A DNA stretch of 64,000 nt. It comes from Deltaproteobacteria bacterium. Its GTDB lineage: Bacteria; Desulfobacterota; Desulfobacteria; Desulfobacterales; Desulfatibacillaceae. Made by a program: the position numbers and the translations under genes. Under the pieces are notes generated by a model. That model ran no database searches, was not told the origin of the DNA, and saw only the letters and a program-made list of their open reading frames with translations. Positions 30,754-42,677 of this stretch are shown piece by piece. Location of the stretch: positions 1-64,000 of the forward strand of contig JACRLG010000001.1 of the NCBI GenBank assembly GCA_016235345.1. Direction: 5' to 3'. The number at the start of each line of letters is the position of its first letter. Positions within the stretch are counted from its first letter, which is position 1.

Positions 30754-30875
30754 AGCCTGGATAAAAACGATGAAATGCAAGGAAGAGTGAAGCGGGCGGG
30801 GAGGAATAGTACTTGTCGTACATGACGACCCGCACGCTTTACTCTGACACAGCAGTTCACGTTTTTATCCAGGCT
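30754..30875 (-). repeat. Long-hairpin element LHE-D
   Basis: Outer arms 30754-30769 and 30860-30875 (AGCCTGGATAAAAACG and complement) are perfect over 16 bp. Boxes CGATGAAATGCAAGG and GACACAGCAGTTCACG are diverged forms of the family boxes. The right arm ends on the first base of the TAA of the acyl-CoA synthetase gene (30875-30877). Confidence 0.8.
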
Positions 30876-32956
30876 TATCCCAAGACTATGGTGGCGTCCA
30901 CCGCTACGGGCTCCCCGTCCGCCACGATGAGCGGGTTTATGTCGATTTCCATTATCCTCGGAAAGGAGGCCCCAAGCCGGGAGACGCTGGCTATGATCCG
31001 GGCTGTGGCCTCGCGGTTTAGGGGTTTCGCCCCCCGGAACCCGTCCAGGAGCTTCTGGTTTTTGAGGCCCGACAGCATGGCGAGGGCCTCGGACTCGGTG
31101 ACCGGTCCCACGGCGAAAACCTTGTCCGCCAGAACCTCGGCATAGACTCCGCCCAGGCCGACCATCACCGAGGGGCCGAACTGGGGGTCGCGGAAAAGGC
31201 CCACGATCAGCTCCAGCCCCGGCGGCACCTGCTTTTGCATCAGCACCAGACCCTCCTGGCCCACCCTGGCGGAGAGGTCCTTGAAGGCGCGCTCGACGTC
31301 GCCCCAGTCATTAAGATTGAGGCGCACCAGCCCCAGCTCGGTCTTGTGAACGCCGCCCTGGGCGATGCCCTTGGCCACCACCGGAAAGCCCCATTTTTCG
31401 GCAAGGCCTACGGCCTCCTCGGCGCTTTCGGCCACGGCCTCGGCAACCACGCGGACCCCGCATTCCTCAAGGATTTTTTTGGAAAGGTGCTCGTCTATGG
31501 GGCCCGACTGGGTGGAGAGAATCTCGTTTAAGGTTGGGGAAAGTTCAGGCGCTGAAATCTCCGGAAAGGCCACGGCGCTGGCGGCCTTCAGCCTTGAATG
31601 GGAAAACGCGGCGGCCATGCACTCCACCGTCCTGTAAAGCTCGCGGTAAACCGGGATTCCCAGGTTCTGAAGCTCGATGTGGGCCTTTTTAGCCCCGTCG
31701 TTTTCGCCGATCAGCCACACGAAAAGCGGCTTGTTGTAGGCCTTGGCCATCTGGGCCATGGGGGTGTAATCAGCCGAAAGCGCTGCGGAGCCGGTGAAAA
31801 GGTGCATGAGAATCGCGTCAACGTTGGGATCGAAACAGGCTGCGGCAAGGGCCGTGCCGTAAACCTTGGACGGGCCGTTTTTCTCCACCGCAGGCCAGAG
31901 GTCTATGGGGTTTTTCACCGGCATCCATTCGGGATAGACCTTGGCCAGCATGGCCTCGGATTCGGGCGAAAGGTCGGCCACGCAAAGGCCCAGCCTTTCC
32001 AGGAAATCGGCGCTCATTATCCCGGCCCCGCCTGAATAGGTGAGAATGGCGGTGCGGCCTTTCGAGTCCGAAGGAAGCACGGGATGCATGGCGAGGCTTC
32101 GGGCGACATCCATCATCTGCTTGAAGTCGTAGGCCTCGATGACCCCCGCCTGGGCCAGGGCACCTGAGATCAGCGCCCCGTCTCCGGCAAGGCTCGCGGT
32201 GTGGCTCATGGCCGCTTCCGCGCCCCGCCTGCTCTTTCCGCCCTTCAAGACCACCACGGGCTTTTTCGCCCCCCGGCAGAGGTCGAGAAAGCGCCTTCCG
32301 TCGGGTATGGATTCCAGGTAAAGGGCAACGGCCTTCGTATCCGGGTCTTTTAACAGGTATTCCAAAAGGTCGGTTTCGGAGACGTCCATCTTGTTTCCGA
32401 TGGAGCAGACCTTTGAAACGCCCATGGTGCCGTGGGTCATGGTGTCGGTGAGAAAGCCGCCGGAAAGCATCCCGCTTTGGACTATCAGAGACACGTCGCC
32501 TTCGATCATCCCGTTCCAGATGGTGGGGGAGACGAAGGAGAACACGTGTTTCGCCTTGATGTCAACGAGGCCCATGCAGTTGGGGCCCCACAGGCGCACC
32601 CCGCCAGCCCTGGCTATGGCCAGGACATCCTCCTGGAGCTTGCGGCCTTTTGGCCCGGTTTCGGCGAACCCGGCTGATTCTATTATGATTCCCTTTATGC
32701 CGCGAGCCACGCACTGGCTGACCACGTCCGGCACCAGCACTGCCGGGACGAAGACTATGGCCAGCTCCACCGGGTCGGGAACGTCGGCCACCGACGGGTA
32801 GCTTGTAAGCCCCTCGATTTCAGGATAGCGCGGGTTTACCGGGTAAATCGCGCCCTTGTAGCCCTTCATCAGGTTTATCAGTATGGCGTGGCCGCCCTTG
32901 GCCTGGGGGGTGGCCCCTACTAGGGCGATTCCGCGCGGCTTGAAGAAGAATTCCAT
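30875..32956 (-). CDS. Acyl-CoA synthetase (ADP-forming), alpha-beta fusion
   Basis: 693 residues: an N-terminal CoA-binding Rossmann domain (GIALVGATPQAKGG), succinyl-CoA-ligase-like domains with the phospho-histidine segment AAMSHTASLAG, and a C-terminal ATP-grasp domain (about 470-690). Reversible: acyl-CoA, ADP and phosphate give acid, CoA and ATP. In anaerobes it conserves energy from acetyl- or aryl-acyl-CoA. The family is often annotated as acetate-CoA ligase; substrate specificity cannot be read here. The fused GNAT domain seen in some relatives is absent, but one is fused to the CoA hydrolase gene nearby. LHE-D follows the stop. Confidence 0.9.
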   Translation of the reverse strand: MEFFFKPRGIALVGATPQAKGGHAILINLMKGYKGAIYPVNPRYPEIEGLTSYPSVADVPDPVELAIVFVPAVLVPDVVSQCVARGIKGIIIESAGFAETGPKGRKLQEDVLAIARAGGVRLWGPNCMGLVDIKAKHVFSFVSPTIWNGMIEGDVSLIVQSGMLSGGFLTDTMTHGTMGVSKVCSIGNKMDVSETDLLEYLLKDPDTKAVALYLESIPDGRRFLDLCRGAKKPVVVLKGGKSRRGAEAAMSHTASLAGDGALISGALAQAGVIEAYDFKQMMDVARSLAMHPVLPSDSKGRTAILTYSGGAGIMSADFLERLGLCVADLSPESEAMLAKVYPEWMPVKNPIDLWPAVEKNGPSKVYGTALAAACFDPNVDAILMHLFTGSAALSADYTPMAQMAKAYNKPLFVWLIGENDGAKKAHIELQNLGIPVYRELYRTVECMAAAFSHSRLKAASAVAFPEISAPELSPTLNEILSTQSGPIDEHLSKKILEECGVRVVAEAVAESAEEAVGLAEKWGFPVVAKGIAQGGVHKTELGLVRLNLNDWGDVERAFKDLSARVGQEGLVLMQKQVPPGLELIVGLFRDPQFGPSVMVGLGGVYAEVLADKVFAVGPVTESEALAMLSGLKNQKLLDGFRGAKPLNREATARIIASVSRLGASFPRIMEIDINPLIVADGEPVAVDATIVLG

Positions 32957-33102
32957 GAATGATCCTTGACGGCTTAAGTATGTAAAAAGGCCCTCACAGT
33001 GTGCGGGGCCGACCGGTTTCCTTATAGCAAGCGCTCGTTATAATCACAAGGGGCGCGTGGCGCGAAAAACAAAAGCGGTTGATAGATGGGCGCTCTGACC
33101 CG

Positions 33103-33501
33103 TCAGGCCCAGTTTTCCATCACAAGTTTTTCTACTCTTGCAAACTCGCGGGTGTTGTTTGTTACCAGTATGGCCGAAATGCTCATGGCGTGGGCCGCTA
33201 TCAGCATGTCCATGGCCCCGATCACCGCTCCCCGCCTTTCGAGGCCGGCCCGGATGACCCCGTAGCACTGGGCGGCCCTGTCGTCAAAGTTCGCTATTTC
33301 AAGGGGGGCCAGAAGGCCCTCCAGGGCGTCCCGGTTTTTCTGCGGCTGGGCGCTTTTGGAAACCCCGTATAGAAGCTCGGCAAGGGTTATGGAGGAAATC
33401 CCGACCTCCGAAACGGAAAGCCCCCTAAGCCTTTCAATGACGCTTTGCGGCTTTTTTTTGATGAGGTAGATGCAGATGTTGGTATCCAGCATGTAGCGCA
33501 T
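33103..33501 (-). CDS. vapC: VapC-type PIN-domain ribonuclease toxin
   Basis: A 132-residue PIN domain with acidic residues in the expected places: MLDTNICIYLI (Asp 6), TLAELLYG (Glu) and GAMDMLIAAHA (Asp), plus a C-terminal LVTNNTREFARV. VapC toxins cleave tRNA or rRNA when their antitoxin is lost. Its start overlaps the antitoxin stop by one base (TGATG), the standard vapBC arrangement. Intact by length and motifs. Confidence 0.92.
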   Translation of the reverse strand: MRYMLDTNICIYLIKKKPQSVIERLRGLSVSEVGISSITLAELLYGVSKSAQPQKNRDALEGLLAPLEIANFDDRAAQCYGVIRAGLERRGAVIGAMDMLIAAHAMSISAILVTNNTREFARVEKLVMENWA

Positions 33502-33728
33502 CAGAGGGACTCCCGCATTTCAAGGCCGGGCTCGAACCTTTGGTCCATGAAATCCTCCGAAAACATGGAAAGGCTCTCAACAAAAGAGGACCAGGGGTCG
33601 TCCTTGGGGGAGAGGATCACGTTTCGCCCCACCTTTTTTATGTACACCTCGTCGCCCGAAAACTTGAACTCCCTGGGAAGCCTCACCGCCTGGCTGTTGC
33701 CGTTTTTAAAAAGTTTGGCCGTGTCCAT
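33501..33728 (-). CDS. vapB: VapB-type antitoxin (AbrB/MazE-like)
   Basis: 75 residues. The N-terminal swapped-hairpin DNA-binding domain has the signature KLFKNGNSQAVRLPREFKF; the C-terminal part should bind and inhibit VapC and, with it, autorepress the operon. The ATG at 33728 is chosen because AAAGGAGGGCTC precedes it; an upstream start five codons earlier ignores that site. First gene of the vapBC pair. Confidence 0.92.
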   Translation of the reverse strand: MDTAKLFKNGNSQAVRLPREFKFSGDEVYIKKVGRNVILSPKDDPWSSFVESLSMFSEDFMDQRFEPGLEMRESL

Positions 33729-33826
33729 GAGCCCTCCTTTCATATATATTTATAAATATATATCATTTCCGGCGAAAAAGCAAGGGCGGCCCAGGGAGCC
33801 ATTCTACAAACATCCCTACCGCCCCG

Positions 33827-33953
33827 GACAGGGCGATCACAAGCGATGAACGGGGAAGCGCAAGCCGGGCGGGATAGACAATGTGCCGTGGTACATTAAG
33901 TTCCCGCCCGGCTCGCGCCTGACACAGCAGTTCGCGCTTGTGGTCGCCCTGTC
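33827..33953 (-). repeat. Long-hairpin element LHE-E
   Basis: Arms 33827-33845 and 33935-33953 (GACAGGGCGATCACAAGCG, 18 of 19 paired). An inner stem GCCGGGCGGGA/TCCCGCCCGGC is tipped by ATGTGCCGTGGTACAT. The stop-proximal box is GACACAGCAGTTCGCG. The right arm overlaps the TGA of the CoA hydrolase gene (33952-33954) by two bases. Confidence 0.82.
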
Positions 33954-35841
33954 AGCGGAAGGAAATCCTCTCGGAGCGATCCGGCGCGGTCTGGCAAAAA
34001 GGAATGGACAGGTGATAGACCCCGGATTCCAGCCGGGCGGAAACCGGATAGGGGGATTTTTCGTAAACCTTGAACATACTGGTGTTGGACGCCAGGATGT
34101 CCGCCGTGAAGCCCTCTATGCCCCGCGACCGGGCGATTCTTATGAGGAGGAAAAAGAGGTAGGTGGCGATTCCCTTTTTCTGGTTGTCCTCGTCAACGAC
34201 AAAGGCTGTGTCGGCCCAGGGGCGGTCGGCGAGCCTCACGTAGCGGCCCTCGGCGATTATGTGGCCGTGGCCGCGCTCGCCCACGAGGCCCACTATGCTC
34301 ATGGCTTTTCGGAAGTCCACGTTCACGTATTCCTGCATCTTGGAGTGCGGCATGGTCTTTACCGGCGAGAAATAGCGGTAGTACACGGCCTCGCTGGAAA
34401 ACCGGTAGAACAGCCGCCTCATCTCCTCCTCGTCGCTGGGCCTTATGGGCCTGAAACGAACGGGCAGATCGCCCTTGAAGGTGCTGGTCTCGTCGATGTC
34501 CTGGGGGTAGAAATGCCCGGTTTCGGCAAGATAAATCTGGTCCCTGTAGATGATCTTGGCTTCCTTGGCCGCGTCCACCAGGGCCGCCCGGTCGTCCGGG
34601 TGGGCTATGTCGATGAGGGCCAGGGCGCGTTCGCGCACGGAGCGTCCCGTAAGGTGCGCCGTTCCGTATTCCGTCGCCACTATGTCCACGGCTTCCGGGT
34701 TGTTGAACTGGTTGGTGAGGTCCCCAAGGCTGATCACGATATTGGAACAGCCCTCCCGGTTGCGGCTGGGAAGTGCCGCTATGACCTTGCCGCCCGCAGA
34801 TGAAGCCGCGCCCTGGATGAACTCCGTGGCCACGCTGGAGCCCACGCCCAGGTTTCCCCTTCCCGAAAGAAAGGCCACCTGCCCGGTGACGTCAACGCGC
34901 CTTGAAGGCAGGATGCCCACGAAGCGGCTGTTTCTGCGTATGCGCTCCGGGTCGCCCAACACGTCCACGCCCTGGAATTCCACCATGGGGTTGCAGTCCA
35001 GCCACTGCATCAAGGCCCGGCTTCCCATGGCGTAGGCGGTTACGCTCTTTCCCCGGAAGGAGCCCTTGCGGCGGTTGGTTACCGCCCCGCTTTTCACCAG
35101 GTCCATGAGGGAATCCGTGAAAAAGGGCGTGTGAACCCCAAGGTCCTTCTTGCGGGCGAGGTGGGGCGAGAGGGCCTCGAAAAGGCGCTCCATGGACCAG
35201 CCGATGCAGCTTCCGTCCTCGATTTCGCTTGCCACGTTTTCGGCCACCTTGTCGTAAATCTCGTCCACGCTGGCGCGCGGAAAGACAAGCAAAGGCTCGG
35301 TGGCCTCCACAAGGTAATGGAAATCGTTCACGTGAACAAAGGTGTCGCCGGTTGTGCGGGGCATTTCCGGCTGTATTTCCCCCACCACCAGCCGGGCGTT
35401 TTCCATGGCCAACCGGGCCACGTCCACGGACACCCCAAGGCTGCAATAACCCGCGTCGTCCGGGGGGGTTATCTGGATAAAGGCCACGTCCACCCTTATC
35501 TGGCCGTTCTCGAACAGGGCGGGAATCCGTGAAAACCGGCATGGGATAAGGTCCACCTGCCCCCGCGAAATGGCGTCCGAGGCCACCCAGCCCGAAAAGA
35601 AGGTCTTCAGGCGAAACTTCATGCTGTCGAGCTTGGGGTAGCTTATGGTGTCCCCAAGGCTCACGAGCTGGATCAGCTCCAAATCCTGAAGGTTCTGGGC
35701 CGTGGATTCCATTATGCCCTTTACCAGGGTGCGCGGCTCGGCCACGCCGGTTCCGATAAAAACGCGCATCCCCGGCTTCACCTGGGACAGGATTTCTTCG
35801 GTGGTGACGAACTTGTCGCGCCACCTGGCGTATTTTCTCAT
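33952..35841 (-). CDS. Acetyl-CoA hydrolase/CoA-transferase fused to a GNAT acetyltransferase
   Basis: 629 residues. Residues 1 to about 430 are a CoA-transferase/hydrolase of the acetyl-CoA hydrolase family (VFIGTGVAEPRTLV, FIQITPPDDAGYCSLGVSVD, VATEYGTAHLTGRSVRERA). Residues about 460-610 are a GNAT N-acetyltransferase domain (FRPIRPSDEEEMRRLF, DEDNQKKGIATYLFF). The fusion suggests coupling of CoA transfer with protein or small-molecule acylation. The ATG at 35841 is used; a TTG seven codons earlier with AAAGGAGC before it is a possible alternative. The much longer frame upstream has no family similarity. Together with the ADP-forming synthetase it points to acyl-CoA recycling. LHE-E lies on its stop. 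Confidence 0.88.
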   Translation of the reverse strand: MRKYARWRDKFVTTEEILSQVKPGMRVFIGTGVAEPRTLVKGIMESTAQNLQDLELIQLVSLGDTISYPKLDSMKFRLKTFFSGWVASDAISRGQVDLIPCRFSRIPALFENGQIRVDVAFIQITPPDDAGYCSLGVSVDVARLAMENARLVVGEIQPEMPRTTGDTFVHVNDFHYLVEATEPLLVFPRASVDEIYDKVAENVASEIEDGSCIGWSMERLFEALSPHLARKKDLGVHTPFFTDSLMDLVKSGAVTNRRKGSFRGKSVTAYAMGSRALMQWLDCNPMVEFQGVDVLGDPERIRRNSRFVGILPSRRVDVTGQVAFLSGRGNLGVGSSVATEFIQGAASSAGGKVIAALPSRNREGCSNIVISLGDLTNQFNNPEAVDIVATEYGTAHLTGRSVRERALALIDIAHPDDRAALVDAAKEAKIIYRDQIYLAETGHFYPQDIDETSTFKGDLPVRFRPIRPSDEEEMRRLFYRFSSEAVYYRYFSPVKTMPHSKMQEYVNVDFRKAMSIVGLVGERGHGHIIAEGRYVRLADRPWADTAFVVDEDNQKKGIATYLFFLLIRIARSRGIEGFTADILASNTSMFKVYEKSPYPVSARLESGVYHLSIPFCQTAPDRSERISFR

Positions 35842-36069
35842 GTTAAAGACCTTTTTTAACAAGGGTGCTCCTTTAAGAACCCGCCCGAAAGACAGGCTCG
35901 TAACCTTAAAATATTGTGACCGGCCCCCATTCACGGAAACGGCGAAAACCGCACCGACGGAAAAAAAGGAGCGCTCGCCCCGATTCCGCAAACCGCCGAC
36001 CCGCGCCGACGGCGTAAACTTCCTTCTTTTACTCGGATTTAAGGAAACGGTCAAGAATTCGGAATGAGG

Positions 36070-36107
36070 CCGCATCCGGCCGGAGGGGTAAGGCGGGCCG
36101 GATGCGG
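36070..36107 (-). terminator. Hairpin after the MerB-like selenoprotein gene
   Basis: CCGCATCCGGCC (36070-36081) pairs perfectly with 36096-36107. It lies seven bases past the true stop of the MerB-like gene (36114-36116), which supports that stop. No clear T run follows. Confidence 0.6.
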
Positions 36108-36113
36108 AAGGGG

Positions 36114-36857
36114 TCAGAATCCGAAGATGGCGGATTGAATGTTCCTGTTCAAAAAGGCCGTCTGAGCGGCGGTGAAGTAGGACCCTCGAACGCGGTGTCC
36201 GCGCTTCCTGTAGGCTCTCGCATGTTCTTCCGACCGGAAGAAGACGCTTTGCTCTCAAAAGGACGAGATGATGTTGGGCTCGTCGAGGGCCATGAGGTCC
36301 ACGTCCGGAATGAAGATTATGGGATCGATGTCGTCCGGTCGGCCGTGGATGTTCATGTCCGAATCAATTTCAAGCTCCATCGGCTCATTACAGCAGGCGC
36401 AGGACGTTTTCACCGTTATGGAAAGCTTTCTTCCGCGCAAGCGCCCTTGCACGAAGGGCGTGGCCATGCTGTCCACCGCTCAGGCTGCGTAGAGGCTCTC
36501 GCCCGTGTCAAAGGTGATGGCGTGGGGGGTTTTTTCAACGGTCACGGGATAGGCCCATATTGCCTCGTCCTTTTCGTTGCGCCAAATGAAGGTCATCCGC
36601 TTTTCAAGCCCGTCCATGATAGTCAGCACGTTAGAAAGCGGCAGGCCAAGGTCTCCCGCCACCATTTCCGGGCCGACCGGCCCACCGGTTTCCGGCATTT
36701 TTGAAACCAGGTAGTGATGCACGCGCCTTGAGTCCGGGCTCATGTCCTCCAGTGCGCGGAGCACGCGCTTTCTGGTTTTTTTCACCTGGCTTTCCCATAA
36801 AACGGGCGGAACGTTTATAACGTACCGCCACAATCCGATCATGAGGCTGTTTTTCAT
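36114..36857 (-). CDS. MerB-like organomercurial/organometal lyase with two selenocysteines (UGA recoded)
   Basis: Read straight through, the frame is 247 residues with two in-frame TGA codons, at residues 126 (36482-36480) and 201 (36257-36255), and ends in TGA at 36114. The N-terminal part is a winged-helix domain as in MerB. The first TGA sits in LYAA-U-AVDS, which lines up with MerB YAWCALDT: U replaces catalytic Cys96 and the Asp three residues on matches Asp99. The second sits in ISSF-U-EQSVFF, lining up with MerB SFCCHVHFF, i.e. catalytic Cys159. The MerB-like sequence continues past it (FFRSEEHARAY, then RNIQSAIFGF). Each TGA is followed by a SECIS-type hairpin. The GGGAGGAAAGC ribosome site precedes the ATG. 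MerB cleaves carbon-mercury bonds; here the substrate is unknown. I recall MerB-like selenoproteins (name SaoL) being described, but cannot check the relation. Confidence 0.85.
36225..36242 (-). promoter_or_regulatory. bSECIS candidate for the second UGA
   Basis: On the minus strand, TTCTTCC (36242-36236) and GGAAGAA (36231-36225) pair perfectly around loop GGTC. The stem starts 12 bases after the UGA, and the GGUC loop lies at the same distance as in the E. coli formate dehydrogenase SECIS, which has the same loop core. Confidence 0.8.
36442..36460 (-). promoter_or_regulatory. bSECIS candidate for the first UGA
   Basis: On the minus strand, CGCCCTT (36460-36454) and AAGGGCG (36448-36442) pair perfectly around loop CGTGC, with the stem starting 19 bases after the UGA. 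A G at loop position two followed by U fits the bacterial SECIS model. It is more distal than the second element. Confidence 0.65.
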
Positions 36858-36903
36858 GCTTTCCTCCCTTGTTTTGCGTCCGCTTATTAATCCGGGCTTT
36901 GAT

Positions 36904-36920
36904 TTTAGATACTTAAAACT
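36904..36920. promoter_or_regulatory. Probable MarR operator upstream of the MerB-like gene
   Basis: TTTAGATACTTAAAACT, imperfectly palindromic (TTTAG...CTTAAA), 47 bases before the ATG of the MerB-like gene. A sister site lies upstream of marR (37394-37410), with 13 of 17 bases identical. Confidence 0.6.
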
Positions 36921-36935
36921 GACGGCAAAAAAAAT

Positions 36936-37385
36936 TCAGCCGAGATTCTTCAAAAACCCGTTCCAGCGGGCAAGGAACCCGGAAATCCTTTCCTGATCCT
37001 CTTCCGAAAGGCTTTCAAGATAGGCTGAAAAATTCCGCCACTCCTCCGCCCGCGAACTGCGGAAACCCTCCAACGCCTCCTTTCCTTTGATGGTGAAACG
37101 GGCCGTCAGCTCGTTTTTTCTGTCACGGTCCTTAAATTTTATAACCACCCCTTTTTTTTCGAGCCTGGAAAGCGTCTGGGACACCGCTCCGGTGGTCACT
37201 CCAAGCGCCCTGGCCATCTCCCCGGCGTTCATCTGCGGGTCATTTTCTATAACCTGCATCAGATGGATTTCCGAGGGGTGAAGCCTTAGGTCACCGTGGC
37301 GGTGGATGAACTTTTTTTCAAGAAAAATAAGCCTGTTGGCGACATCGGAAATGCAATTCAGAAGTTTTTCCAGCGGCGTTTTCAT
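36936..37385 (-). CDS. MarR-family transcriptional regulator
   Basis: A 149-residue winged-helix regulator. It has helix-turn-helix QMNAGEMARALGVTTGAVSQTLSRLEKKGVV and wing DRDRKNELTARFTIKGKEA, with helical ends for dimerisation. It contains no cysteine, so a thiol-metal switch is unlikely; a small ligand would have to act. It lies directly upstream of the MerB-like selenoprotein gene on the same strand, 78 bases apart, and related TTTAG...AAAACT sites occur before both genes. It therefore probably represses itself and the lyase. Confidence 0.88.
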   Translation of the reverse strand: MKTPLEKLLNCISDVANRLIFLEKKFIHRHGDLRLHPSEIHLMQVIENDPQMNAGEMARALGVTTGAVSQTLSRLEKKGVVIKFKDRDRKNELTARFTIKGKEALEGFRSSRAEEWRNFSAYLESLSEEDQERISGFLARWNGFLKNLG

Positions 37386-37393
37386 GGCATGAA

Positions 37394-37410
37394 TTTAGTA
37401 TCTGAAAACT
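37394..37410. promoter_or_regulatory. Probable MarR operator upstream of marR
   Basis: TTTAGTATCTGAAAACT lies nine bases before the marR ATG and would block its transcription start or leader. It is the sister of the site at 36904-36920. Confidence 0.6.
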
Positions 37411-37461
37411 CCTTTGTCAAGCCCCCCTCGCCACATTTCCCATGCCTGAAATGTTATACGA

Positions 37462-38106
37462 TTACCCCAGAATATATCGGAAATCGCAGAAGGGTGCTCC
37501 CTCGGACTGGTATTGGGTCCGGGTAAGGCTTGTGCCGGAAGGCATGAACCGTGCTGCGAAAAGATCGTCAAGAGTGCAGATGGCAGCCCTTGTAAGCTCA
37601 GGTGCGCCGTTTTCCGAAAGATACTTGTGGGCTCCGCATCGCTTTACGTTCAAGTCCGCCAGATGCCCTTTTCCCGCCGGTAAAAGTTCGTACATCCATC
37701 CGTTGGGATCATCAGCCCGGTTGTCGGTAAAAGCCAACAGCCTTATGGCCGCCCTTACCGCAAACCTGCTTTTGGCTGCCAGCCTCACAAAAAATGCGGC
37801 CTTTTTGTTCATGAAGGCCAGAAGAAAATCCTCGTTAAAGCGGGCCGCCAGCAGAAGCGCCTTGTCCCGATCCACTCTTTCGAGTAACGCCAGGTAAACC
37901 GGAAGCACGATCACCGCCGCCGCCAGATTGACCCTGCCGCCCATTGTCTTGAGGGCCGGAACTCCGGGCCGGAGACGGTCGTAATGCCTTTTGGCGGATT
38001 CCAGAACTTCCCGCGCCGCATCGCTCCCCAGGGCCTCGTCCAAGGCAGGACGCCCCCATTCCAGGGACCGCGCAAACCCGCCGTCAAAATCGGGAAATCT
38101 GATCAT
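37462..38106 (-). CDS. L-2-amino-thiazoline-4-carboxylic acid hydrolase-like protein
   Basis: 214 residues. The C-terminal third carries the pattern of the ATC hydrolase family: KRCGAHKYLSENGAPELT, AICTLDDLFA, then TLTRTQYQSEGAPFCDFRY-like end with conserved Cys and Asp. The reference enzyme opens a thiazoline ring in cysteine formation; most relatives, including this one, have unknown substrates. The ribosome site GGAGAAAGAGGC precedes the ATG. It ends 76 bases before marR on the same strand, so it might be co-regulated with the MarR/MerB-like pair, but the marR operator lies between them. Confidence 0.7.
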   Translation of the reverse strand: MIRFPDFDGGFARSLEWGRPALDEALGSDAAREVLESAKRHYDRLRPGVPALKTMGGRVNLAAAVIVLPVYLALLERVDRDKALLLAARFNEDFLLAFMNKKAAFFVRLAAKSRFAVRAAIRLLAFTDNRADDPNGWMYELLPAGKGHLADLNVKRCGAHKYLSENGAPELTRAAICTLDDLFAARFMPSGTSLTRTQYQSEGAPFCDFRYILG

Positions 38107-38193
38107 GCCTCTTTCTCCATTCCGTCATTCAGGGCGTTGCGCCGGAATCTTGTCTTTTGATGCTTGCAGCCATTTCCTGAATCCAGATATGAT

Positions 38194-38526
38194 TTAATTT
38201 TTCATCTTGCCTTTCGACTTTTTCTTCTTTTTTATATCTTCAATAACCACCATAATTTCATCTTTTTTATTCTTTTTTCTTTTCATATTTTCAAATTCAT
38301 CTAACAACAGACCTATTGAAAAGGTTAAAAAAGATGCTAAAAAAACAATACCTCCTATTGGTGATAAAATACATTTAATATAACACCTTACCATTCCATC
38401 ATATTTATTATTATAAATAGTATTTAAAATGACAATATTATAATAATAATAAAGTTGAGAAAATATAAAAAGTGAAATAAAAAGTATTATTCCAATAGTT
38501 ATTAAGTCCTTTCCTTTCAATTTCAT
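38194..38526 (-). CDS. Small AT-rich membrane protein with basic tail, unknown
   Basis: 110 residues. Two long hydrophobic segments (about 10-36 and 54-73) are followed by a Lys-rich cytoplasmic tail (KKKKKSKGKMKN). No family recognised. The DNA is very AT-rich compared with both neighbours, like the gene at 30174. The start ATG follows no clear ribosome site. Possibly a recent arrival or an open frame by chance. Confidence 0.4.
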   Translation of the reverse strand: MKLKGKDLITIGIILFISLFIFSQLYYYYNIVILNTIYNNKYDGMVRCYIKCILSPIGGIVFLASFLTFSIGLLLDEFENMKRKKNKKDEIMVVIEDIKKKKKSKGKMKN

Positions 38527-38655
38527 TTTTATATGCCATATTGTAAGTTATAGTCGCTTTCGCCTTAACTATAGAACATTGAACAATCAGTTGAAATACC
38601 GTATTATTCTGGCTCTATAGCTTTCATAACCTCCTTCAGACACTACCATAAAACT

Positions 38656-38783
38656 CTAACTGTAGCAACCCGGATACTTGGAATCCCTGCCGAAGATGCC
38701 GGGGGAAAGGTGCTGCAAAAGGCTCAGTTCCCCGGCGAAGGCGGGGGGGGGCCGGTTTTAGTTATGGCCGTATAGAACCTTGC
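38656..38783 (-). pseudogene. Remnant of a second DUF362 gene (3' end)
   Basis: The minus strand reads a decayed copy of the C-terminus of the DUF362 protein encoded at 39879-41384: ARFYTA, then after a deletion TGPPP, a frame break in a run of nine C, then AFAGELSLLQHLSPGIFG and RDSKYPGCYS before a stop. The intact gene has ELALLQRLSPGIFG and RDSRYPGCYN. So a tandem duplicate was lost here, leaving about 130 bases behind the nitrilase gene. Confidence 0.8.
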
Positions 38784-38810
38784 CTGCTCTTTCCAGGATT
38801 TCCATATATT

Positions 38811-39707
38811 TCAAAACTTTTCGCGGACACCCCGGATAAATCCTGCGGCCTTGCAAAGGGCGCGCTCCACCGCCAGAACAGGCGTGATATGGCCACGGCT
38901 GGGCCAGGGGTCATTATCGTCAACAGGGCCGGTGTTTTTAAGTTCCAGTTCTGCTAAGAGCATCTGCTCTCCGGTGGTGATTCCCTTTTCCACAAAGCCT
39001 TCCGGCGTAACAATGGAAGAGCCCCCGATCATCCACGCGTCCGAGCCGAAAAGCGGGTGCGGGCCTCCCCAGGAATCGCAATACACCACGGGCGCTCCCA
39101 CGTAGCGCGCAATTCTTTGCGGCAACTCCCGGATCAGCCGGTCACTGTGCCGCGCGGCGCGGCCCAATGGCCCCCATTTGTAATCCCTTGAAAGGTCCGG
39201 CCAGGCCGAAGAAATGGCCATCATGTCCACCCTGCCCCGGTAGGGCTCAAAAACATCCTTATACAGCATGTCCTTGCAGATGGCGCAGCCGATGCGGCCG
39301 AAAGGCGTATCATAGATCACGGGCCCGGTTCCGGGGACCGCAAAAAGGTTCTCGTGCGCCACCAGTTCGTTCTTGAAATACACGCCCGCCAGGCCGTTTG
39401 GCGTGAAATAGCCCTGGGTGTTTCGCAGCCTGCCGTTTTCCTCATGTAAATATCCCGCGAAAACATGAACCGAAAGCTCTTGGGCCAGGCCCTCGAGCCG
39501 CGCCGCAAATGGCATGGCTTTTTGTGCCTGACTCCGGTTGTAGCAGGCCACGGTATAGCCTGTGAGCGCAAGTTCCGGCAAAAGGCAGATTTGAGCGCCT
39601 TTCGCCACGGCCTCTTTTACGGCCTCTTCGCAGGCGGCGATGTTTTTTTCCATGCTGAAGGAGCTAACATCGATCTGGCACGAGGCAACAGTGACTTTCA
39701 TCGGCAT
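38811..39707 (-). CDS. Nitrilase-superfamily carbon-nitrogen hydrolase
   Basis: A 298-residue soluble hydrolase with the Glu-Lys-Cys triad visible: LLPELALTG (Glu 45), VYFKNEL (Lys 112) and GCAICKDM (Cys 144). Members hydrolyse amides, nitriles or carbamoyl groups. The C-terminal HITPVLAVERALC is unassigned. Two ATG codons lie six bases apart; the second (39701) is better spaced from AAGGA. It is separated from the DUF362 gene by element LHE-F and may still belong to that operon. Substrate unknown. Confidence 0.82.
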   Translation of the reverse strand: MPMKVTVASCQIDVSSFSMEKNIAACEEAVKEAVAKGAQICLLPELALTGYTVACYNRSQAQKAMPFAARLEGLAQELSVHVFAGYLHEENGRLRNTQGYFTPNGLAGVYFKNELVAHENLFAVPGTGPVIYDTPFGRIGCAICKDMLYKDVFEPYRGRVDMMAISSAWPDLSRDYKWGPLGRAARHSDRLIRELPQRIARYVGAPVVYCDSWGGPHPLFGSDAWMIGGSSIVTPEGFVEKGITTGEQMLLAELELKNTGPVDDNDPWPSRGHITPVLAVERALCKAAGFIRGVREKF

Positions 39708-39718
39708 CTATCCTTAAC

Positions 39719-39838
39719 AGCCTGCCCAAAAACGCGAATCGCTGTGTCACGCTTCAAAGGCAATTCCGTCACGTACTTTTAGTACGCTTACTCATTGCTT
39801 TCTCGCGTTCCTTGCGCTTCATCGTTTTTGAACAGGCT
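39719..39838 (+). repeat. Long-hairpin element LHE-F (reversed orientation)
   Basis: Arms 39719-39734 and 39823-39838 (AGCCTGCCCAAAAACG, 14 of 16 paired). Boxes read CGCGAATCGCTGTGTCACGC on the left and CGTTCCTTGCGCTTCATCG on the right, with apex CGTACTTTTAGTACG. This is the only copy whose stop-proximal box does not touch a gene end: it lies before the nitrilase start and 40 bases past the DUF362 stop, facing away from it. Confidence 0.78.
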
Positions 39839-39878
39839 TCACATTAAGCCTTTTTCAACTGGCTGTTAAAAAATCCCA

Positions 39879-41384
39879 TCAATTGTAGCAACCCGGATAC
39901 CTGGAATCTCTGCCGAAGATGCCGGGGGAAAGGCGCTGAAGAAGCGCCAGCTCTTCAACAAAGGCCGTGGGGCTTTTTCCGGTTTCGGCAAGGCGGTTCA
40001 CCAGTTCGGCGGCGGCTATGCCGGTGGTGTAGAGCCTCGCCGGATAGGCGAACTCCCGCGAACCGGAAATTATGTAATGCCCCGAAAAACGCACCGGACC
40101 GGACAGGCCCTTCCCCATGGCGCTTTTCAGGCGTTCGGCGTCTTCGGCCCCAAGGTAGGAGAGCCTCTCGATTATGTAGGGCGAGCCGGAGATTATGGGA
40201 AGCTCGTTTCCTATGTTCCCGATTTTTTTCCTCATCATGAATTTTCTGTACAAGAGGAGCAGGTAGCGCAGGTCAAAGGCCAGATTTATTGGCGCGGTTC
40301 CCATGTAGAGCAGTTTCTTCCACCAGGAAAGCTCCTGATTTTTATGGATGAAGCATTTGTCGTAGCCGCCCGTGGCCAGGGCCCCGCAGTAGTCCATTAT
40401 CCAGGCCGAGCTTTCGATCAGAACCACCACCAGAACGAAAATGAGGGGCACGTTGCGCCAGGGCGAAAATGGCGCGGCGTTTCCCACGAGCCGGTAAGGC
40501 TTTTCGGACATAATTGAGGCGAGCTTGCGGAATATGGGGCTTTTTTCCGCCTTCACCCCCATGAGCCGCGCCCCCTCGCGCTCCACGGCCATTATGTCGC
40601 GCCCTGCCACCATGGTGTGGGTCTTTTTGGCGATGGCCTTAATCTTGACACCCATCCAGCCGTCCGCGCCGGAGTAGCCGTCTATTATGGAAAAATGGAC
40701 CGGAAAGGCCTTCACGATGTGGGCGGTCCAGGGGGTGACGCGCCTGTGGCAATGGTAGTGGGTCACCTTGTCCTGGTGCGGAAGGCAGCCGTAGACGTTT
40801 TTTATGGCAAGGGTGTAGTAGGAGTAAAAGTGGCTTTTGAGCTTGGCGAAACTTATGCGGAAATCCGCCTCGGCCCAGGCCTTCCCCACCTCCACCCGCC
40901 CCACGTCCGGGATGTCGTACTCCGCAAATTCATACGTGAGATCGACTATGGGCACCTTGGCGTCAACCCCGCCGCCCTTTACGGAAATTTCCGCCCTCGA
41001 TTCGCCCTTCCAGCTTTCAATGACGGATTCCGGAAGATACCCGGCACGGGCCGCCACAGGCACAACCCCCCGCCTTTCAAACCAGTTGCCATAAAGGTTC
41101 TGGCTTTCCACCACGCAAAGGTTGGTGTAGCCGCGCAGAAGAAGCAGACGAAGAAGGTGGATCACCAGAAAGCTGTCGGTGTAGACCCCCACGTCGTCGC
41201 GCCTTAGCATCATGGAGAGGTTGGGCTTCACCGCCACCATAAAGTCCGCCTTGGCCTTGCCGGAGCGCGAAAACTCGTCGTCCAGGGTCTCGAAAAACCG
41301 GGACTGGGCAAGGGTTTCCTCCAACAGGGCGTACTTGTCGCCTTTTCCGTGGTCAGTGAGCGCGGCTACAATGCTCTCTTCCAT
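39879..41384 (-). CDS. DUF362-domain protein
   Basis: 501 residues. The N-terminal half carries the DUF362 pattern (ADFMVAVKPNLSMM, GYTNLCVVESQ, ADFRISFAKLKSHFYSYYTLAIKNVYG), a domain found in anaerobes, often next to ferredoxin modules, of unknown chemistry. A hydrophobic segment at about 320-345 (VPLIFVLVVVLIESSAWIMDY) suggests membrane attachment. No ferredoxin-type Cys cluster is present. The gene follows two membrane-protein genes almost without gaps, so the three products probably form a membrane complex. Its 3' end is duplicated as a remnant at 38656-38783. Confidence 0.82.
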   Translation of the reverse strand: MEESIVAALTDHGKGDKYALLEETLAQSRFFETLDDEFSRSGKAKADFMVAVKPNLSMMLRRDDVGVYTDSFLVIHLLRLLLLRGYTNLCVVESQNLYGNWFERRGVVPVAARAGYLPESVIESWKGESRAEISVKGGGVDAKVPIVDLTYEFAEYDIPDVGRVEVGKAWAEADFRISFAKLKSHFYSYYTLAIKNVYGCLPHQDKVTHYHCHRRVTPWTAHIVKAFPVHFSIIDGYSGADGWMGVKIKAIAKKTHTMVAGRDIMAVEREGARLMGVKAEKSPIFRKLASIMSEKPYRLVGNAAPFSPWRNVPLIFVLVVVLIESSAWIMDYCGALATGGYDKCFIHKNQELSWWKKLLYMGTAPINLAFDLRYLLLLYRKFMMRKKIGNIGNELPIISGSPYIIERLSYLGAEDAERLKSAMGKGLSGPVRFSGHYIISGSREFAYPARLYTTGIAAAELVNRLAETGKSPTAFVEELALLQRLSPGIFGRDSRYPGCYN

Positions 41385-41386
41385 GA

Positions 41387-41842
41387 CTATTTATCCTCTT
41401 TCGGCCCGTATCCGAGGAAAAGAAGCGAAAAAACAACCGCTATCGGCTCTATCACAAGGGTCCAGAAACCGATCACCGTGATCTCGTTTCCGTAAGTGCC
41501 GGGAATGAGGCACAACAGCCCGGAATCCGGAAACATGAAACCAAGGGCGATCAGGGCACCGCCAATCATCGGGCCCGCCGCTGCGAAAAGATAGCCTGCG
41601 CTTTTGCCCCGCAATATCAGGACGGCGCTGGTTTCGTAGCCCACAAGGGCGATTATGAATATGGCCCAGTACCACACGGGCATGGAAAGCCCCGAAGCTA
41701 TGGTCTGGGCCATGCCAAGGCCGTGGAGGAAGCCTCCTGCGGCGATGGCGGCTGCGGCCGCCCTTCCTGTCACGAAAAAGACAGCCGCCGCATCCTGTTC
41801 CCGCATGGTTGCAGCATTGTTTACAACCGGGGAGTCGTCCAT
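41387..41842 (-). CDS. Small integral membrane protein, unknown
   Basis: 151 residues with about four predicted membrane helices (from residue 22 on) after a polar N-terminus. No family recognised. The start lies two bases after the stop of the preceding membrane protein gene, and its stop is two bases before the DUF362 gene, so the three are translationally coupled. A later ATG (residue 13) is possible as start. Confidence 0.7.
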   Translation of the reverse strand: MDDSPVVNNAATMREQDAAAVFFVTGRAAAAAIAAGGFLHGLGMAQTIASGLSMPVWYWAIFIIALVGYETSAVLILRGKSAGYLFAAAGPMIGGALIALGFMFPDSGLLCLIPGTYGNEITVIGFWTLVIEPIAVVFSLLFLGYGPKEDK

Positions 41843-41843
41843 G

Positions 41844-42677
41844 TCAGTTCTCGGTCACGAAAAGTTTCTGAAAAACCTTGTAGATGGGGCGTCCCTTGGC
41901 AAGGAGCAGGTATTTCGCCCCCACCAGGAAAACCGGCACCACTATGAGGGCCGCCAGAAGCGGGCTTCCGATTACAGAGGCGAGAGCCCAGGCAAGCCCC
42001 GCCGCCACGAAGACGCTTGGGATGCTCACCCCGAAAAGGGCTACGAGAACCAGAATGATTGCGGTTTTCGGTTCGGGAATATCGTCGCGCTTTATTTCGG
42101 GGTCCGTGAAAAGGCCCATGCGGATCCAGATTATCATGGGGAAAATGAGGGCCGGGCCGATGATGATTCCCATGCCCACAAGGGTGAAGGCAACGTTCGA
42201 GAAGACGAACGAAAAGCCCATGTGATGGCCCACTGTCCAGAGCACGCCCCCGTTTTTGGTGGCGTCGTAGAGAAAGCGCTGCCAGCCGGTTCCGTCCCAG
42301 CCGTAGACCAGGATGAAGATCATGAAGAAGTAGCCGAAATAGGCGTGATTCCAGGCCCCGGAGATGCTTCCCTTCTTTATGGAGCGCTGGGCGAGGTAGA
42401 AGCCCAGGACCCCCTGGGTGATGTTGGTTACGGCGAAAAGCACGACGAGCCAGGCCGGAAGGTCATCCCTGCACGTGGCCACCTGCATTGTCTCCCAGTG
42501 GGGGAACTGCCACAGAAGATAGACCCCGCTCGGCGCGAAAAGGCAGGCAAGAAACAGGAGGTTGTACACGAAATACTTGTTGATGAAGGGGTCGTCCTCC
42601 TTTTTAAGCTGCCTTGCCGCAGCAGCCGCAAAACCCGCCCCAAGGGAATAGGCCCAAAACACGTCCACCTGAACCAT
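41844..42677 (-). CDS. Multi-spanning membrane protein, unknown
   Basis: 277 residues with about seven predicted membrane helices. Several His and Trp in membrane-near positions (FPHWETMQ, GAWNHAYFGYFF, GHHMGFSF) could bind a cofactor such as heme or quinone, but no known pattern fits. An excellent ribosome site (GGAGGATGTC) precedes the ATG. First gene of the operon with the small membrane protein, the DUF362 protein and perhaps the nitrilase. It is separated from the upstream TetR gene by LHE-G and about 115 bases that should hold the promoter. Confidence 0.72.
   Translation of the reverse strand: MVQVDVFWAYSLGAGFAAAAARQLKKEDDPFINKYFVYNLLFLACLFAPSGVYLLWQFPHWETMQVATCRDDLPAWLVVLFAVTNITQGVLGFYLAQRSIKKGSISGAWNHAYFGYFFMIFILVYGWDGTGWQRFLYDATKNGGVLWTVGHHMGFSFVFSNVAFTLVGMGIIIGPALIFPMIIWIRMGLFTDPEIKRDDIPEPKTAIILVLVALFGVSIPSVFVAAGLAWALASVIGSPLLAALIVVPVFLVGAKYLLLAKGRPIYKVFQKLFVTEN

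Follow-up and report, generated by a model that had tools for sequence, protein, structure and literature searches.

A predicted double selenoprotein of the MerB fold with UGA codons at both catalytic cysteine positions

In the organomercurial lyase MerB the metal is bound by Cys96, Cys159 and Asp99 and is removed by thiols, as described in the accessible part of the source (PMC4525700). A selenoprotein of this superfamily has also been described: in the available portion of a 2026 selenoprotein inventory, SaoL of the SAO system is the sole MerB-like entry, listed as "CU, 1 Sec", and that portion enters no double selenoprotein as MerB-like (PMC13188914). A MerB with two selenocysteines (Sec) was absent from the titles and abstract openings of the literature on MerB or organomercurial lyase together with selenoprotein; a prior description is possible, and the class is apparently undescribed. 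The window analyzed here is a stretch of 64,000 nucleotides (positions 1 to 64,000 of contig JACRLG010000001.1, assembly GCA_016235345.1, a deltaproteobacterium), and it contains a MerB homologue in which both catalytic cysteine codons are UGA.

The reading frame and its MerB fold

The gene was found to occupy a single frame of 247 codons with TGA at codons 126 and 201, as in the initial annotation, to which the strand (minus) can now be added (Table 1). The frame closes with a further UGA, taken as the true stop because relatives end close by. Of the flanking signals mentioned earlier, both the ribosome site and the hairpin past the stop were located, the latter as an inverted repeat without a T run. 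The expectation that gene callers would lose part of the protein holds insofar as the frame is cut at the first UGA, where standard table-11 reading ends such genes; a table-11 listing (ORFs of at least 80 aa) gives only the first 125 aa of the frame.

Table 1. Positions of the MerB homologue, its special codons, candidate RNA signals and the adjoining regulator within the window
Feature	Coordinates	Strand	Basis
Double-UGA MerB homologue, coding region, 247 codons	36117..36857	-	frame reading, Pfam, alignment, model
UGA codon 126, MerB Cys96 column	36480..36482	-	frame reading and PDB alignment
UGA codon 201, MerB Cys159 column	36255..36257	-	frame reading and PDB alignment
Asp129 codon, MerB Asp99 column	36471..36473	-	frame reading and PDB alignment
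Terminal UGA, codon 248	36114..36116	-	read as true stop
Ribosome-binding site GGGAGG	36863..36868	-	from sequence
12-bp inverted repeat directly past stop, without T run	36070..36107 (arms 36070-36081, 36096-36107)	-	from sequence
Candidate SECIS 1, 7-bp stem, loop CGUGC, loop 26 nt after UGA126	36442..36460	-	conserved hairpin
Candidate SECIS 2, 7-bp stem, loop GGUC, loop 19 nt after UGA201	36225..36242	-	conserved hairpin
MarR-family regulator, 149 aa, 78 nt upstream of MerB homologue	36936..37385	-	ORF and Pfam

The read-through protein belongs to the MerB superfamily, as it was matched by the Pfam MerB model (PF03243) over residues 106–238 with 53.7 bits against a cut-off of 27. Both UGA codons lie inside this match, in agreement with the coding similarity to MerB previously noted across them. 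The best sequence matches among solved structures were MerB chains (E 6e-5), and in the PDB alignment residue 126 falls on the Cys and residue 129 on the Asp of YAWCALD (Cys96 and Asp99 in the numbering of PMC4525700, as far as that source was available), with residue 201 on Cys159. The register at 201 is fixed by the C160S mutant 3f2g, in which the next residue is Ser160. All three catalytic columns are therefore occupied (Sec being allowed for Cys), with the first TGA at Cys96, the Asp99 equivalent three residues on and the second TGA at Cys159, exactly as first proposed.

An AlphaFold2 model calculated with 62 aligned proteins had a mean pLDDT of 93.3 (53 of the 60 related loci described below were included in the structure alignment). 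All 11 Foldseek matches at E ≤ 0.001 were MerB chains, and VIA structural alignment to MerB2 (5c17) gave Z 22.6 and rmsd 2.6 over 206 residues, the first non-MerB chain appearing only at Z 5.5. From this model the protein is confidently predicted to have the MerB fold. It scored below the NCBIfam models for MerB organomercurial lyase, NF033555 (47.5 vs. 200 bits) and NF009710 (51.5 vs. 193 bits), and since it lies far under both the MerB and the SaoL equivalog cut-offs, its substrate may differ.

Relatives and conservation of the two UGA codons

When five proteins of the window clade were searched against 84,980 species genomes, 60 loci were recovered. At the two catalytic columns 57 of these have UGA at both sites (U/U) and one has Cys followed by UGA (C/U, L066), while L088 covers site 1 only and L091 site 2 only, each with UGA. 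The initial annotation had called for homologues with Cys or UGA at each site, and the columns do hold Sec or Cys. One of the two search patterns had Cys at site 1, so that Cys forms were findable; the second sits in the hairpin codons, and Cys forms without the hairpin may therefore escape it. Frames were broken or partial in four of the 60 loci: L050 is broken near its end and L089 shifts out of frame and back (both count among the 57), L088 is without the C-terminal part and L091 without the N-terminal part. Sequencing error and decay cannot be told apart in these four MAG-contig loci, but breaks are this rare, and accumulated frameshifts, named earlier as a mark of a decaying gene, are not what the relatives display.

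By their labels the carriers include Desulfobacterota, other deltaproteobacterial MAGs, Chloroflexota, Acidobacteriota, Nitrospirota, Spirochaetota, Actinomycetota and Zixibacteria, although nearly all are MAGs, some labels contradict themselves and individual placements may be wrong. Among 389 genomes of the window's order, 46 had a match; all 36 matches of at least 214 bits have two TGA codons, and 13 weaker ones (18–60 bits) are mixed. In a set of 96 genomes, 13 had a match, giving 15 loci (own genome included), of which 13 have two TGA, L027 one and L019 none. The sequence of L027 upstream of site 1 is unlike the family, and this locus looks truncated or rearranged. At L019 (1-3381) the Cys/Cys MerB-like gene lies between ORFs resembling, by eye, 2-hydroxyacyl-CoA-dehydratase-type and DsrE proteins, an arrangement that by eye resembles part of the SAO arrangement. 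Querying plasmids with the window protein yielded a single record, from Simkania and annotated merA, in which both columns hold Cys; phages gave no match.

Besides the window gene, the window's genome has one further PF03243 match, at C2:342012-342326, and each of the two has two in-frame TGA codons. The second copy (L001, G000:C2:342012-342326, minus strand) belongs to clade B of the tree described next; its UGAs are in the same columns, it has Glu at the Asp99 column, and its site-2 hairpin is the same as that of the window gene.

In an alignment of 93 superfamily proteins, collected by similarity to Sec forms and thus no census, the two columns read U/U in 79, C/U in five and C/C in nine, and U/C was not seen in any of the 93. 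The Asp99 column holds Asp or Glu in all 93 rows, with Asp in clades A and C and Glu in clade B and two Cys/Cys sisters. The tree places the window protein in a clade of 62 rows (support 100/99), U/U in all but one. Clade B has 16 rows (99/99), and its sister group is formed by the Cys/Cys relatives L141 and L144 (99/82). The branches starred on the tree require at least three changes of the U/U label, the loss in L066 included, but the number of double-Sec origins estimated in this way is approximate, as deep forks are weak and long branches meet. Double Sec probably arose more than once, in the window clade and in clade B. The alignment and tree include 51 of the 60 loci, with L050, L069, L070, L077, L085, L087, L088, L089 and L091 left out as shorter or partial; also outside are L027, which has one TGA and an unlike sequence upstream of site 1, the Cys/Cys loci L127 and L146, and L028–L031 and L092–L121, many of which are duplicates of the same genes, and some duplicates from two collections (L033/L149, L042/L150) are retained.

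Several other forms were observed. L141, L144 and L146 have Cys at both columns and are related to clade B; in L141 and L144 the Asp99 column holds Glu. L025 and L026 represent a third double-UGA MerB clade with a NUVWDIF motif and no recurring neighbors, and L128 and L129, which are under the SaoL cut-off, combine Cys at column 96 with UGA at column 159 and are further single-Sec MerB forms.

As a rule the gene is found by itself, and in some genomes a MarR or MerR regulator precedes it. Of the 60 loci, seven have a MarR-type homologue upstream on the same strand within 180 nt and one more has it some 900 nt away; five have a MerR-type regulator no more than 75 nt upstream (families were checked with Pfam for the regulators of the window and L032 and for three of the five MerR-type proteins). 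Six of the seven MarR-type proteins examined have no Cys and the window's has one; the five MerR-type regulators have 0 to 2 each. The MerR mercury model covered the L034 regulator over only the first 83 of 124 positions, with 36 vs. 151 bits. Other neighbors vary and their clustering revealed no pathway, nor did neighbors recur beside clade B and C genes in the loci fetched. Such a stand-alone or own-regulator setting suggests that the inducer is a small organic or lipophilic organometal compound and that the gene does not belong to a mer operon.

Some nearby genes were recorded in their own right. Three MAGs, one of Chloroflexota and two of Acidobacteriota, encode a small conserved protein of 85–95 aa (VERVQTGVR...) close to the double-UGA gene (L060 7717-8001, L068 2392-2676, L087 8561-8815), with no Pfam match for the one tested. 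On the minus strand of the window are a VapC/VapB toxin-antitoxin pair (33103-33743; NF047863 188 bits, NF047862 107.6 bits, both over cut-off), a gene of the L-2-amino-thiazoline-4-carboxylic acid hydrolase family (37462-38106; PF14196, 59.5 bits) upstream of the MarR gene, and, downstream of the MerB homologue, a CoA-transferase-like gene with a C-terminal acetyltransferase-like part (33952-35838), whose NCBIfam matches are far under their cut-offs.

Evidence for selenocysteine insertion

Purifying selection persists past each UGA. In 39 rows of exactly 741 nt, pN/pS pooled over eight disjoint pairs was 0.29 for codons 1–125, 0.21 for codons 127–200 and 0.17 for codons 202–247. Constraint also extends to synonymous positions downstream of the UGAs: the share of the commonest synonymous codon had a median of 0.96 for 12 hairpin codons vs. 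0.54 for 129 others (p = 4e-7). The segments ACGCCCUUCGUGCAAGGGCG after UGA126 and UUCUUCUGGUCAGAAGAA after UGA201 are nearly invariant across phyla, third positions included.

These segments form the hairpins CGCCCUU-CGUGC-AAGGGCG at site 1 and UUCUUCC-GGUC-GGAAGAA at site 2, and pairing was counted in 54 distinct sequences per site (from 58 and 59, respectively). At site 1, 95.5% of stem cells are paired and GC is replaced by UA at one pair in eight sequences; at site 2, 99.2% are paired and both-sided changes occur at three pairs (11 cells). The both-sided cells (eight at site 1, 11 at site 2) exceeded those in all 500 shuffles. Counted as pairs, the single one at site 1 was reached in 393 of 500 shuffles and the three at site 2 in 19 of 500, and the site 1 structure slid by +2 likewise gave eight both-sided cells, at 74% pairing. 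Ser UCG accompanies Arg CGG in all five rows that have the latter at site 2; the other rows have UCA except L044 and L047. Clade B has an identical site-2 hairpin. The folding energy of the 42 nt past the UGA, determined for 65 of 69 genes, was in the lowest 10% for 37 of 65 genes at site 1 and 10 of 65 at site 2 (median percentiles 0.088 and 0.291), and was ordinary at several clade B and C sites. A scan with Rfam gave no SECIS match. The perfect 7-bp hairpin noted after each TGA by the initial annotation is thus present and conserved, with compensatory change. Its comparison of the second hairpin with the SECIS of Escherichia coli fdhF is correct for the GGUC loop, while the spacing, given as the same, is close and not identical (18 nt after the UGA in fdhF vs. 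19 nt). On the strength of the conserved RNA, both hairpins are considered candidate SECIS elements.

The genome itself was also to be checked for sel genes, and SelB (360.6 bits vs. a cut-off of 242) and tRNA-Sec (74.9 bits) are both over cut-off there. Across 24 carrier genomes picked mostly outside Desulfobacterota, SelB was over cut-off in 22, compared with two of 14 control genomes; of the two remaining carriers, the L068 genome has a fragment and the L088 genome, whose gene is partial, an elongation-factor-like match. The tRNA-Sec model was over cut-off in 17 of the 24 carriers and is less specific, since five of the 14 controls also pass. Within the window's order SelB is no discriminator, because 325 of the 389 genomes have it over cut-off.

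With UGAs at the catalytic Cys positions, selection past both, conserved hairpins and the presence of SelB and tRNA-Sec, the predicted Sec reading of the initial annotation is supported, and Sec is very likely placed at both MerB catalytic positions. As the conserved RNA and the SelB and tRNA-Sec of the genome suggest, SelB would bring Sec-tRNA to both in-frame UGAs, each insertion being directed by the hairpin directly downstream.

Predicted activity and comparison with described proteins

The gene probably encodes a double selenoprotein of the MerB fold that acts as a Sec-dependent organometal(loid) lyase and works as MerB does, and lyase activity of this kind, taken by itself, is moderately likely. 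As three catalytic residues are in place in a confident MerB-fold model, a mechanism may be proposed in which Sec126 and Sec201 would bind the metal of R-M as selenolates, Asp129 would hand a proton to the carbon so that RH departs, and the metal ion would remain bound to both selenolates until its removal by thiols or another acceptor. With Sec at both ligand positions and the Asp kept, protonolysis with selenolate ligands would be the simplest reading. Selenolates should bind soft metals more tightly than thiolates and be deprotonated at lower pH. These properties help attack but could hinder release; tighter product binding by two selenols could thus slow turnover instead of giving the stronger lyase that was envisaged at first.

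Alternatively, the double selenoprotein may not be a lyase: its two selenols would join in a diselenide and serve, on the MerB scaffold, in redox chemistry or metal scavenging. Two selenolates would grip a single metal ion very tightly, as befits a scavenger no less than an enzyme. According to the available part of the inventory (PMC13188914), many selenoproteins either have thiol oxidoreductases among their homologues or contain redox motifs, and the accessible part of PMC4525700 describes that even in MerB thiols are needed for removal of the metal from both cysteines. However, a scavenger or redox site would not need an acid at the Asp99 column, where all 93 aligned rows have Asp or Glu, and the two Sec are 75 residues apart, without a UxxC or CxxU motif. 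This alternative is considered unlikely, but it has appreciable weight.

As a special case of the lyase reading, the protein could be a double-Sec methylmercury lyase which guards mercury methylators from their own product. Of the 36 carrier genomes of the order, 24 (the window's included) had HgcA over cut-off, and among the 389 genomes of the order it was found at E ≤ 1e-75 in 24 of 36 carriers vs. 138 of 353 others (Fisher p = 0.002, kinship uncorrected). Kinship may account for this excess, however, and 138 of the 162 HgcA genomes are without a strong match to the double-UGA gene, so that the HgcA link is only a weak lead. Nor do the regulators, with few or no Cys, resemble Hg-sensing MerR, which carries Cys. 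MerA was over cut-off in none of the 36 carriers, which speaks against a mer operon; MerA-related matches at E ≤ 1e-50 occurred in 35 of 36 carriers and in 13 of the 14 controls, and the strongest of them reached 414.9 bits vs. a cut-off of 454. The methylmercury role is accordingly doubtful. The HgcA (mercury methylation corrinoid protein) of the window's genome is encoded at G000:C28:313999-314967 and scores 420.8 bits.

It is very improbable that the window protein is a SaoL member acting in the SAO pathway. The two share a fold family and Sec at the Cys159 column, and each of the 14 proteins tested has an NCBIfam SaoL match at E ≤ 0.01; the window protein nevertheless reaches only 44.8 bits against the cut-off of 140 of the SaoL equivalog (NF040728). 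Two proteins in 395 genomes of the phylum were over this cut-off, both C-U with U at column 159 (columns were read for 29 of the 30 loci of the SaoL search, the own-genome copy L134 being out). These two, L124 and L125, have Cys at the Cys96 column and agree with the "CU, 1 Sec" entry as given in the available portion of the inventory (PMC13188914). The locus of L125 (L164) holds SaoD, SaoA and SaoB over cut-off, whereas nine window neighbors tested (30875-42677) gave no SAO family match at E ≤ 1e-8 and, by clustering and nearest neighbors, no SAO-like cluster recurs beside related genes. The tree also sets the window clade of 62 rows (100/99) apart from SaoL, although deep forks are weak. SaoL identity was consequently rejected on score, residue pattern and the lack of an SAO operon at the window, and with regard to the remark in the initial annotation that MerB-like selenoproteins (SaoL) may already be described, SaoL is a different relative: it has a single Sec in the consulted part of the inventory (PMC13188914) and the window protein two.

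That the gene is a decaying pseudogene or a sequencing error with ordinary stops, as the two interruptions of the frame, the broken or partial frames at four of 60 loci and the use of UGA as the stop of the adjoining MarR gene might imply, can be dismissed with near certainty, because 57 of 60 loci share both UGA codons, the coding sequence past each UGA is constrained and the hairpins are conserved. Reassignment of the code was rejected as well, since the MarR gene next door terminates at UGA.

Returning to the double-Sec lyase, the family may tentatively be regarded as a widespread, apparently undescribed class in which both metal ligands of the MerB fold were changed to Sec for a carbon-metal(loid) bond that thiols cleave poorly, possibly, in mercury-methylating anaerobes, as a mer-independent methylmercury demethylase. 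If true, this would be a nearly obligate double selenoprotein family, with one Cys at one site among 60 loci, having Sec at both catalytic metal ligands and offering a candidate for carbon-metal cleavage where bacteria lack a canonical mer operon. It would also become testable whether selenoenzymes degrade methylmercury or methylated metal(loid)s in a bacterial group that makes methylmercury.

With the double selenoproteins found in the available part of the 2026 inventory (PMC13188914), such as MbdU (NF045648) and MduS, the window protein has in common two Sec in one bacterial protein, but it has no NCBIfam match to the inventory's double selenoproteins at E ≤ 1. It resembles MerB (PF03243; PDB 3f0o, 3f2f, 5c17) in fold, in an N-terminal winged-helix-like part, in the Cys96, Asp99 and Cys159 positions and in a further conserved Cys (C153 in the window protein). 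It differs in that both catalytic Cys codons are UGA, in an identity of about 20% with scores under the MerB equivalog cut-offs, and in its setting, as the window has no mer operon and the 36 carrier genomes no MerA over cut-off. SaoL (NF040728) shares with it the MerB superfamily and Sec at the Cys159 column. It is, however, a shorter protein with Cys at the Cys96 column and one Sec preceded by Cys (CU), and the one SaoL locus examined (L164) is an SAO operon, whereas the window gene stands alone and its product has two Sec, the second preceded by Phe.
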